A stretch of DNA of 64,000 nt, from NCBI GenBank assembly GCA_947499125.1, contig CANMMP010000002.1, forward strand, positions 310,001-374,000, written 5' to 3'. Source of the DNA: an uncultured Pontibacter sp. (GTDB taxonomy: Bacteria > Bacteroidota > Bacteroidia > Cytophagales > Hymenobacteraceae). Position numbers and translations under genes: made by a program. This document shows, piece after piece, positions 24,470 through 26,219 of this stretch. Under the pieces are notes generated by a model. The model was not told where the DNA came from. It made no database searches and was given only the letters and a program-made list of their open reading frames with translations. The stretch's first letter is position 1, and each line of letters starts with the position of its first letter.

Positions 24470-24501
24470 TTGCAAAGTTTATAGTTGCAGCCTTACCTTT
24501 G
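24470..24501 (+). promoter_or_regulatory. Bacteroidota-type promoter driving the SAM riboswitch leader
   Basis: TTG at 24470-24472 and TACCTTTG at 24494-24501 fit the -33 TTG and -7 TAnnTTTG boxes with a 21-base spacer. Transcription would start near 24507, ten bases before the riboswitch P1 helix, a tight positional fit. Confidence 0.65.
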
Positions 24502-24516
24502 CAGCATCTTTATCAC

Positions 24517-24620
24517 AATTTATAAAGAAGAGGGGAGAGAGCAGGCTCCGCGAACCTCTAGCAACCGGCAATCATATTGTATAGGTGCTAACTCCTGCCC
24601 AGTTTTGGGAACTATAAATT
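24517..24620 (+). ncRNA. SAM-I (S-box) riboswitch
   Basis: The closing P1 helix is exact: AATTTATA (24517-24524) with TATAAATT (24613-24620). Between them lie the S-box core elements in order: AGAGGGGAGAGAGCAGGC, CTCCGCGAACC, AGCAACCGG, and GGTGCTAACTCCTGCC. These match the conserved SAM-binding core of the SAM-I class, which binds S-adenosylmethionine and turns off methionine/SAM-related genes. There is no obvious intrinsic terminator right after P1. Instead a short leader ORF starts two bases downstream, so control of translation, or of that ORF, is likely. Confidence 0.88.
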
Positions 24621-24622
24621 AC

Positions 24623-24727
24623 ATGCACATGCTTATCCAATTACCTCACACAGCCCCGAATTACACAAGTTTATACGTCGTAGCAGTGCCTGCTGCGCAG
24701 CAAGGCTGTTGTTGCTGTTGTTATTAA
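24623..24727 (+). CDS. Short leader ORF ending in five consecutive cysteines
   Basis: An ATG two bases after the riboswitch P1 helix opens 34 codons; a second in-frame ATG is two codons later. The peptide runs MHMLIQLPHTAPNYTS... and ends QQGCCCCCY before TAA. The cysteine codons are TGT TGT TGC TGT TGT. Runs of one amino acid in a short ORF upstream of a biosynthesis or transport gene are the hallmark of ribosome-mediated attenuation (leader peptides). Here stalling would report charged tRNA-Cys. It sits between a SAM-I riboswitch and a probable methionine transporter, so dual sensing of SAM and cysteine is plausible (inference). The open frame continues upstream through the riboswitch, but those codons are RNA structure, not protein. 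Confidence 0.55.
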   Translation: MHMLIQLPHTAPNYTSLYVVAVPAAQQGCCCCCY

Positions 24728-24753
24728 TCCCCGCATGTTAATGCTTTAGCTTA

Positions 24754-24772
24754 CTGCGCCAGCCTGGTGCAG
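24754..24772 (+). promoter_or_regulatory. Small hairpin after the Cys-rich leader ORF
   Basis: CTGCGCCA and TGGTGCAG pair over 8 bp (one G-U) with a 3-base loop, 27 bases after the leader stop; a short T run follows at about 24781-24784. It could be an attenuator or anti-attenuator arm, but the T tract is weak. Confidence 0.35.
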
Positions 24773-24872
24773 CGGCAAGCTTTTATACTTCTAAATCAAT
24801 TCTTTACTGCTGTAGCTATGCCTCGGGGTGTTTACTCTCAGGTTTGCAGGCATCTTTTTACAATTTATACTT

Positions 24873-26219
24873 ATGGATCAGATTCAGAGAACCGGGGGCG
24901 TAGCGCTCGTTCCTTTCCTGGTGTTTGTGGCAACTTTTCTTGGTTCCGGCATAGTGCTGGACGATTTTTATGCGCTGCCCTCGCCGGTAGCCGTTGTGTG
25001 TGGCATTGTAGCCGCGTTTATACTTTTAAAAGGAAGTATAAATGCAAAAGTAGACGCCTTGATTCGGGGATGCGGCGATTCCCAGATCATGACCATGTGC
25101 CTGATCTACCTGCTGGCCGGCGCTTTTGCTGTTGTAGCCAAAGCAGCTGGCGGCGTTGATGCCACTGTAAACTTAGGGCTGTCTGCAATACCAGTGCAAT
25201 ACCTGGCGCTGGGCATCTTTGTGCTGGCTTCTTTTTTATCGACGGCTACAGGAACTTCGGTGGGGGCTGTAGTAGCGCTTGGCCCTATAGCAGTGGGGCT
25301 GGCAGAGCAAAGTGGCACATCTTTGCCTTTAATGCTGGGCGCTTTGCTGGGCGGAGCCATGTTTGGCGATAACCTCTCCTTTATTTCAGATACAACTATA
25401 GCTGCTACGCAAACCCAGGGCTGCAGCATGAAAGATAAGTTTAAGGTAAATATACTGATTGCCGGGCCTGCTGCTTTACTAACAATTGGGTTGCTGCTAT
25501 TTGCCGGATTTACCAACGGAGTTGCTCCTGATGTATTGCCAGCTGTGCAGGAGATCAGCTTCTGGAAAATTGTACCTTACCTGCTGGTGTTGTTCCTGGC
25601 AATTTATGGCGTTAACGTGTTTGTGGTGCTAATGCTTGGTATAGTTGCTTCGGGTGCTGTTGGCCTGGCAGGTGGCGAGCTTGATTTGCTGCTGTTCAGC
25701 AAAAAGATATACGAAGGCTTTACTGGCATGACAGAGATCTTCCTGCTCTCGATGCTGACTGGTGGCCTTGCCGAAATGGTGCGGCAAGCCGGCGGCATAC
25801 AGTTCCTGCTGGATAAAGCTAACAACCTGATACGTAGTTACCGTTCCTCGCAGGTAGGTATAGGCTTGCTGGTAAGTGGCGTGAACAGTGCTATCGCGAA
25901 CAACACCGTATCTATAGTAGTAACAGGGCCGGTAGCGAAAGATATAAGCCAGCGTTATAGTATAGATAACCGCAAAACAGCAGCTTTAATTGATATTTTT
26001 GCCTGTATTGTTCAGGGCTTGTTGCCTTATGGTGCCCAGATGCTGATACTGGTAAGTTTTACTGGTGGTAAAGTCTCGTTTTTAGACATATTACCCTATG
26101 CCTGGTATATTTACCTGTTACTGCTTTTTGCGCTGCTTGCCATCTACACACCTTTTGTAGACAGATTATTGGCTGATAAGCAAAGCTCTGAATTGCCTCG
26201 TAAAGTGATAGCTAATTAA
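24873..26219 (+). CDS. NhaC-family transporter, probable methionine transporter MetT
   Basis: The product is 448 residues from the ATG at 24873 (a GTG 15 codons upstream is also in frame), with about 11-12 membrane helices. Family marks include FLSTATGTSVGAVVALGPIAVGLAEQSG, LGALLGGAMFGDNLSFISDTTIAATQTQGC and GVNSAIANNTVSIVVTGPVAKDIS, typical of NhaC-type Na+/H+ antiporter homologues. Within that superfamily a branch named MetT imports methionine and is recognised by S-box or other methionine control. The SAM-I riboswitch directly upstream argues strongly for methionine transport rather than plain sodium export. A strong terminator follows, so it is monocistronic apart from the leader ORF. Confidence 0.85.
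   Translation: MDQIQRTGGVALVPFLVFVATFLGSGIVLDDFYALPSPVAVVCGIVAAFILLKGSINAKVDALIRGCGDSQIMTMCLIYLLAGAFAVVAKAAGGVDATVNLGLSAIPVQYLALGIFVLASFLSTATGTSVGAVVALGPIAVGLAEQSGTSLPLMLGALLGGAMFGDNLSFISDTTIAATQTQGCSMKDKFKVNILIAGPAALLTIGLLLFAGFTNGVAPDVLPAVQEISFWKIVPYLLVLFLAIYGVNVFVVLMLGIVASGAVGLAGGELDLLLFSKKIYEGFTGMTEIFLLSMLTGGLAEMVRQAGGIQFLLDKANNLIRSYRSSQVGIGLLVSGVNSAIANNTVSIVVTGPVAKDISQRYSIDNRKTAALIDIFACIVQGLLPYGAQMLILVSFTGGKVSFLDILPYAWYIYLLLLFALLAIYTPFVDRLLADKQSSELPRKVIAN

Follow-up and report, generated by a model that had tools for sequence, protein, structure and literature searches.

A SAM-I aptamer adjoining a cysteine-run leader ORF in Bacteroidota: a candidate two-input composite RNA regulator of sulfur genes

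In Salmonella, the MgtL/mgtA leader holds an ion-responsive RNA and a codon-sensitive short ORF in one transcript; its inputs are Mg2+ and proline, and its layout differs from that of the leaders described here. Polycysteine leader ORFs are known from mycobacteria (Canestrari et al., 2020, as titled in a reference list) and were predicted earlier (PMC1262725). According to the parts of these sources available to us, they resemble the present leaders as short ORFs with a Cys run near the stop, upstream of cys genes and tied to cysteine-responsive attenuation; they are leaderless by the title, and those parts note no riboswitch and no conserved terminator. The leaders analyzed here are, in contrast, fused to SAM-I, belong to Bacteroidota and precede metY, cysH and MetT-like genes. 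In the accessible text on Mycobacterium tuberculosis B12/ppe2 (PMC11260477) and Mbox/pe20 (PMC12810186), an aptamer controls a uORF which in turn sets the downstream gene, as we propose here, but these excerpts mention no amino-acid regulatory codons, and the ligands and the phylum are others. For Clostridium acetobutylicum ubiG, a single sulfur operon responds at the RNA level to SAM as well as to the supply of cysteine; there, as far as the excerpt goes, cysteine acts via a T-box that is reportedly not fully functional, the S-box drives an antisense RNA and there is no leader peptide (PMC2940859). A Cys-codon leader ORF with a terminator and a proposed ribosome-mediated attenuation, uORFC-8-2, lies ahead of cysS in Rhodobacterales; in the part of the source at hand it has two Cys codons and no aptamer, and both gene and class differ (PMC8632094). 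Leader-peptide attenuation ahead of amino-acid operons has also been proposed in Flavobacterium, again by the portion available (PMC9723704). The components are thus already known: SAM-I, Cys leaders, riboswitch-controlled uORFs, and control of one operon by SAM and cysteine. The initial annotation of our locus had suggested that a SAM-I aptamer paired with a Cys leader was undescribed in Bacteroidota, and we recognized no such pairing in the literature searched, which was mostly open-access and cannot prove absence. An aptamer acting on the start region of an amino-acid-sensing leader would be the new element, no description of it having been found in that literature.

The window, that is, the whole stretch of DNA analyzed (64 kb of an uncultured Pontibacter sp.), contains one Rfam match over the cut-off, a SAM-I (S-box) aptamer (RF00162) at 24517..24620 (cmscan, 77.2 bits against a cut-off of 44.4, E 2.1e-16). 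All features given here lie on the plus strand. A Cys T-box in this leader was ruled out, as no T-box Rfam match exceeded the cut-off. Upstream, a putative promoter box, TACCTTTG (24494..24501), fits the Bacteroidota consensus TAnnTTTG, quoted for positions -12 to -5 in the part of PMC9723704 at hand, and the transcript start is inferred, not mapped, at about 24506; sequence comparison finds TTACCTTTG at the equivalent position in L005, L006, L008, L013 and L034. The P1 closing helix of the aptamer consists of A/U pairs only (AATTTATA / TATAAATT). Its 3' strand, CTATAAATT (24612..24620), adjoins the leader start codon on the 5' side, and we propose this region, whose role is inferred, as a SAM-controlled initiation region for the leader.

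From the start shared with its homologs, the Cys leader ORF spans 24629..24727 and encodes MLIQLPHTAPNYTSLYVVAVPAAQQGCCCCCY (32 aa plus stop); counted from a further in-frame ATG, at 24623, the ORF is two codons longer, 34 in total. The peptide ends Gly-Cys5-Tyr (GCCCCCY) before a TAA stop at 24725-24727, and the Cys5 run (TGT TGT TGC TGT TGT, 24707..24721) is followed by a single Tyr codon. Five consecutive TGY codons occur once in the 64 kb window and in none of 100 dinucleotide shuffles, which together with the conservation in relatives excludes a chance run. Starting 15 nt past the leader stop, a terminator-like hairpin (24743..24780) precedes the T-rich TTTTATACT (24781-24789). The hairpin-plus-tail score exceeded those of all 30 shuffles (p=0.03); the leader region as a whole folds no more stably than shuffles (z +1.39). 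The downstream gene (24873..26219) encodes a 448-aa MetT-like transporter of the NhaC superfamily (PF03553); its ATG at 24873 is 145 nt from the leader stop, and 252 nt separate it from the aptamer. This protein does not attain the NhaC equivalog cut-off and has no relative of solved structure by sequence. For relatives behind S-boxes in Firmicutes, MetT is the name given to a probable methionine transporter, as far as the available text of PMC2940859 goes. The aptamer, the 34-codon ORF, its Gly-Cys5-Tyr ending, the 145-nt gap and the hairpin had all been placed correctly in the initial annotation.

A protein search of 59 genomes returned 17 intact transporter orthologs in the genus, the window included. 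In 16 of them a SAM-I aptamer lies no more than 1.5 kb upstream, and all 16 have a Cys-cluster leader; with the additional ortholog L034, which agrees, the pair is found in 17/18 Pontibacter orthologs, all 17 module loci scoring above the Rfam SAM-I cut-off. L010 has no Cys leader and no SAM-I aptamer, even at E up to 1. In the first 16 leaders, the ATG comes right after the aptamer, the ORF has 27-34 codons and 4-8 Cys stand near its end, in a cluster that Tyr, Gly, Met or Arg sometimes interrupts among Pontibacter leaders. The middle of the peptide, outside the Cys cluster, is diverged. Loss of the Cys run or of the start position among homologs had been named as the result that would refute the proposal; both are kept in 17/18 orthologs. 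The start had been assigned to the ATG 2 nt past P1, and this codon is present (24623), but the remaining 16 Pontibacter leaders keep a spacing of 6-8 nt from aptamer end to ATG. The second ATG of the window (24629) lies 8 nt from the aptamer end, so the homologous start is likely this one, giving a leader of 32 codons.

Each of the last five Cys positions is written as both TGT and TGC within Pontibacter, the synonymous change that had been suggested as a codon-level check, and all the runs examined contain 187 TGT and 88 TGC codons. This exchange indicates that selection apparently acts on cysteine and not on the nucleotides. Combined with the fixed frame and the fixed start, it rules out that the run is the T-rich tail of a terminator misread as codons. 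Two loci, L009 and L017, have long leader-to-transporter spacings (382 and 695 nt), and apparent SusD-type coding remnants were seen by eye, without a family scan, upstream of the transporter in L010 and L017.

The same layout is found at a distant transporter ortholog of another family (L053, also listed as L150; 41% identity). In this family, f22 (8 genomes, 19 SAM-I sites), a Cys leader occurs at 9 sites, ahead of metY of the O-acetylhomoserine sulfhydrylase type (7), cysH (1, with a cysD-like ORF beyond it) and a transporter (1). Downstream of the 10 f22 sites without one are metH (8; in L149 behind another ORF), a transsulfuration-type gene (1) and an unidentified gene (1). We then counted without selecting for leaders, in a class sample of 90 genomes at least 90% complete, 67 of which had a match; all 91 SAM-I sites listed were taken, including two (L294, L295) under the Rfam cut-off, and a Cys leader was scored at three or more Cys in five residues. 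Ten of these 91 sites have a Cys leader, distributed as 7/10 metY-labelled, 1/1 transporter (the window) and 2/8 unlabelled sites, against 0/61 metH, 0/10 transsulfuration-type and 0/1 metE-like sites. With the window left out, metY (7/10) differs from metH plus transsulfuration type (0/71) at p=3.5e-8. A looser criterion (a Cys-Cys doublet, start at -3 to +19) added only two sites, both metY, one starting with TTG. The two unlabelled sites precede a RimK-like ATP-grasp domain gene (L267) and a TonB receptor plug (L282), both in genome G059. The gaps between leader and gene measure 358 and 394 nt, and by eye L267 fits the usual aptamer distance only through an in-frame GTG start.

The reference genes behind these labels were checked against protein models after the counts had been made. 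L152 passes the OAH/OAS sulfhydrylase model TIGR01326 and L153 the cysH models; the best match of L137 identifies it as a metH fragment, and the name metE was given by eye. The reference first called CGS (L151) matches the cystathionine gamma-lyase, gamma-synthase and beta-lyase models, all below the cut-offs shown for them; it remains unresolved between synthase and lyase, hence the label "transsulfuration-type".

The metY family was surveyed in 395 genomes of the class, using our own covariance model for the aptamers; 96 genomes had a match, giving 103 loci, of which 71 fit the N-terminal pattern set for canonical metY. L204, L383 and L417, metY-like loci with Cys-run matches, do not fit this pattern and stand outside the 71. 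A Cys leader is present in 37 of the 46 canonical metY loci with a SAM-I aptamer, and three of the remaining 9 have a Cys-Cys doublet. Among the 25 loci without an aptamer, 11 were scored with a Cys leader; L411 has no real run, which leaves 10, and it was removed before the start-distance, Met-codon, terminator and antiterminator counts of the metY set. The 37 SAM-linked leaders span 12 families, 13 with f22. Outside the class (198 genomes, 154 with a match), the best-scoring 30 metY loci contain no ATG-started Cys leader; a TTG-start match without the GGTGCY core (L336) was taken as chance. Among 30 class cysH loci read, four have a Cys leader directly upstream (L302 with SAM-I; L309, L311 and L312 without), and 26 do not. 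The search of Bacteroidota for Cys-run ORFs directly past SAM-I, called for in the initial annotation, therefore finds the arrangement again on metY and cysH and in other families. Judged from sequence, the module is general and not peculiar to the window locus or to the transporter gene.

Three architectures can be told apart. In the fused form, to which the window belongs, the leader start adjoins the aptamer end: the 37 SAM-linked metY leaders start at -1 to +21 nt from it, 36 of them at -1 to +15. Among the possible starts in the Cys frame, scoring took the one closest to the aptamer, a choice biased towards short distances. In the tandem form, L169 (metY) and L302 (cysH), the Cys leader lies 146 and 112 nt past the aptamer, respectively, and a GC-rich hairpin with a T run stands between the two by eye. 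These loci suggest that the SAM switch and then the Cys leader would be passed serially, in the same AND order. The leader-only form precedes cysH in L309, L311 and L312 and metY in L191, L195, L196 and L199, none of which has a SAM match at E up to 1. At three metY loci (L196, L199 and L409), two Cys/Met leader modules follow one another, each with its own significant terminator, and 4 of these 6 modules have a significant antiterminator partner. The loci of our first set, used for spacing, folding, U-tract, anti-P1 and codon analyses, had been chosen for their Cys leaders and give no frequencies, which come from the 91-site class sample and the metY survey alone. The folding-profile, U-tract, anti-P1/codon and Met-per-Cys analyses used only the first Cys ORF per SAM locus (the second in L017 was dropped).

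We propose that the module is a composite RNA regulator with two inputs, which turns its gene on only if both SAM and Cys-tRNA are scarce; without expression, probing or ribosome data, we put the probability of this reading at roughly two in three (0.68). The transcript would open with the SAM-I aptamer, whose A/U-only P1 adjoins the start codon of the leader. With SAM bound, P1 is inferred to be stable and to prevent initiation on the leader; with SAM low, the leader would be translated. A ribosome supplied with ample Cys-tRNA would pass the terminal Cys run and complete the leader, and one short of Cys-tRNA would stall at the run, both steps being inferred. In the least certain step, the stalled ribosome would refold the RNA around and past the run, so that the hairpin no longer terminates transcription or masks the gene. 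Since the untranslated and the fully translated leader would both leave the gene off, it would be on only with SAM and Cys-tRNA both low. The interpretation given in the initial annotation largely holds.

On the SAM side, A/T makes up 89% of the final 8 aptamer nt at the 10 Cys-leader sites of the class sample vs 65% at the other 81; the A/T fraction was used here, and the motif patterns differed slightly between the groups. An A/U P1 was likewise seen by eye at 8/9 metY sites without a Cys run, so this feature goes with metY rather than with the run. If SAM acted on a terminator, the 3' strand of P1 should have a downstream pairing partner. Such an anti-P1 partner (p<=0.05) was found at none of 40 fused sites (2 at p<=0.1; mean z +0.17) against 20/78 SAM-only sites (mean z -0.86; L225, L234 and L281, metY-labelled and without a run, omitted), and the sole tandem site tested, L169, was not significant (z -0.67). 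Fused sites hence do not meet the anti-P1 antiterminator criterion of a classical S-box switch. This result weighs against the idea that SAM-I works through an ordinary terminator, with the leader as an independent or non-functional ORF. L169 and L302, where by eye a separate SAM terminator stands ahead of the leader, speak for it, but it leaves unaccounted for the fused leaders starting within ~15 nt of the aptamer and the conserved Cys cluster and start position, and we regard it as scarcely credible. For the fused loci, the simplest platform left is one in which P1 governs initiation on the leader, an inference made without SAM-binding or translation data. That SAM decides whether the leader is translated, as first suggested, is supported only indirectly, by the start distances, the A/U P1 and the lack of anti-P1 partners; SAM binding and translation themselves are inferred.

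On the cysteine side, stable windows recur past the leader stop: for the 17 Pontibacter loci they fall at +14..+22, for the 24 further SAM-linked loci at +34..+38 and for the 9 leader-only modules at +26, with folding minima of mean z -0.9, -1.6 and -2.6, respectively. The folding profile also has unexplained peaks 5' of the Cys run (-38 to -58) and near +82 in Pontibacter; an alignment of 14 Pontibacter leaders was too diverged 3' of the run. Against shuffles, a hairpin with a T tail reached p<=0.05 in 13 of the 52 first-set modules; the corresponding counts for the metY set are 16/37 fused and 10/13 leader-only modules. In the leader-only metY loci, 6 of the 10 terminator modules have a significant antiterminator partner of the terminator 5' arm. 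Five of these partners are placed between the run and the leader stop, 20-40 nt past the first Cys, and the sixth (L398) lies around the run. The former placement, open under a stalled ribosome and covered by one that finishes, is that of a classical attenuator, the stalling itself being inferred.

The fused modules do not repeat this picture. A significant antiterminator was found in 0/14 testable modules, two of the 16 with a terminator having too little upstream sequence for the test. For the window, the strongest pairing candidate of the terminator 5' arm (p=0.050) falls at -16..+9 around the first Cys. A stalled ribosome would cover this segment, the opposite of what a simple trp scheme requires. 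In 6/16 fused terminator modules (L198, L366, L374, L382, L395 and L401), the Cys run already contains the first bases of the hairpin, and a stalled ribosome is inferred to block such hairpins directly. The downstream hairpin had been proposed as a possible switch read by the stalled ribosome: the hairpin is there, but without a significant antiterminator in fused loci such a role is still conjectural. The direction of the cysteine response in these loci is deduced from gene logic and from the leader-only relatives, not from a demonstrated pairing.

These gaps leave room for a scheme with the same inputs whose output runs through Rho or access to the gene start, as in mycobacteria, instead of an intrinsic terminator. 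SAM would then halt leader translation and expose naked RNA to Rho, and a ribosome stalled near the leader end would open the gene start region. The U tracts 3' of the hairpin are weak in many fused loci, which fits this scheme as does the lack of antiterminators there. In the parts of the sources at hand, the M. tuberculosis Mbox is a translational platform on a uORF combined with Rho (PMC12810186), and a conserved terminator hairpin is absent from mycobacterial Cys leaders (PMC1262725), which another source cites as a case of translation attenuation (PMC13236596). We nevertheless judge this output unlikely, since terminator-like hairpins are over-represented past fused leaders, stable windows appear repeatedly at a fixed spacing from the leader stop, and most leader-only modules have intrinsic terminators.

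Cysteine is perhaps not the only amino acid read by the proposed two-input leader, as Met is enriched just ahead of the run: 36/204 residues in the four codons before it vs 15/1011 elsewhere, and 22/168 vs 9/881 in aptamer-linked leaders only. This enrichment may make the leader sensitive to Met-tRNA as well, or may have some other origin. In the first set, the Met-per-Cys ratio is 0.82 in 6 aptamer-less leaders vs 0.16 in 42 (p=6e-5), and a wider set of 13 aptamer-less vs 37 leaders gives p=0.003. We do not claim that Met codons replace the SAM aptamer, because family means do not differ significantly (5 vs 12 families, p=0.49). Cys clusters are able to bind metal, and copper-responsive small ORFs offer a model in which the nascent Cys-rich peptide would sense a metal or the redox state rather than Cys-tRNA charging. 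The Met residues adjoining the clusters suit this model, but the target genes serve sulfur assimilation and methionine/cysteine supply, and the body of the peptide is not conserved, so that we hold it to be very improbable.

Sensing of SAM and Cys-tRNA, as we prefer, agrees with the genes concerned. Those under the composite leader bring in sulfur, by direct sulfhydrylation (metY), sulfate reduction (cysH) or a MetT-like transporter, whereas metH and the transsulfuration-type PLP genes have the SAM-I aptamer alone. If the transsulfuration-type genes encode cystathionine gamma-synthases, their sulfur donor is cysteine. The pattern fits sulfur being imported or fixed only when SAM and cysteine are both short. 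The window transporter has, by its predicted elements, the dual control seen elsewhere on metY and some cysH genes. Its genome has two further SAM-I sites, before a transsulfuration-type PLP gene and before metH, neither with a Cys leader. No metY match was found there at E 1e-100 and no cysH match at E 1e-25, and given this apparent lack the genome would depend on imported sulfur compounds.

We lean slightly towards a broader reading, in which an AND gate shared by at least 13 families of one class sets the sulfur source. With SAM low and cysteine ample, only metH and transsulfuration-type genes would be on; with both low, sulfate reduction, sulfhydrylation or import would be added. The leader start region would be the sole platform, and Met codons may give a third reading. 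If true, a metabolite riboswitch and codon-specific ribosome stalling would together form a two-input RNA logic gate that occurs naturally across a class, on genes at the junction of methionine and cysteine supply. The split between SAM-only control (metH, transsulfuration-type) and control by SAM plus Cys (metY, some cysH, the transporter) offers a testable rule of sulfur-source choice. The fused, tandem and leader-only forms of one gene's leader would be a natural series on the origin of composite regulators. A small ORF is also marked at many loci, and a substrate class is suggested for the NhaC/MetT-like transporter.

Some loci differ in ways worth recording. The more distant transporter orthologs of family f2 (L021, L035, L036, L037 and L052) have no Cys leader; Rfam calls SAM-I/IV in L035 and L036, and by eye a similar stretch, CGCCTTAG...GGTGGTTATCTGACTGC, lies ahead of the NhaC-like gene. 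SAM-I/IV (RF01725) also stands upstream of many NhaC/MetT-like genes of Flavobacteriia (L057-L066, L069, L070, L074, L075, L077 and others); no SAM-linked Cys leader was found in the loci examined, where the same gene goes with another SAM aptamer class. In most f37 loci among L154-L181, an ATGATG (MMYA.. or MMVC..) lies about 35 nt past the GGTGC core, just after the SAM-I aptamer, and could be a short ORF or merely part of the P1 region. Finally, three SAM-I-linked metY loci (L384, L394 and L410) have by eye a Cys-Met pair instead of a Cys run (MLYYQQCMPP.., MLYLQQCMSS.. and MPIHPDRRCMPP..), perhaps a reduced form of the same device.
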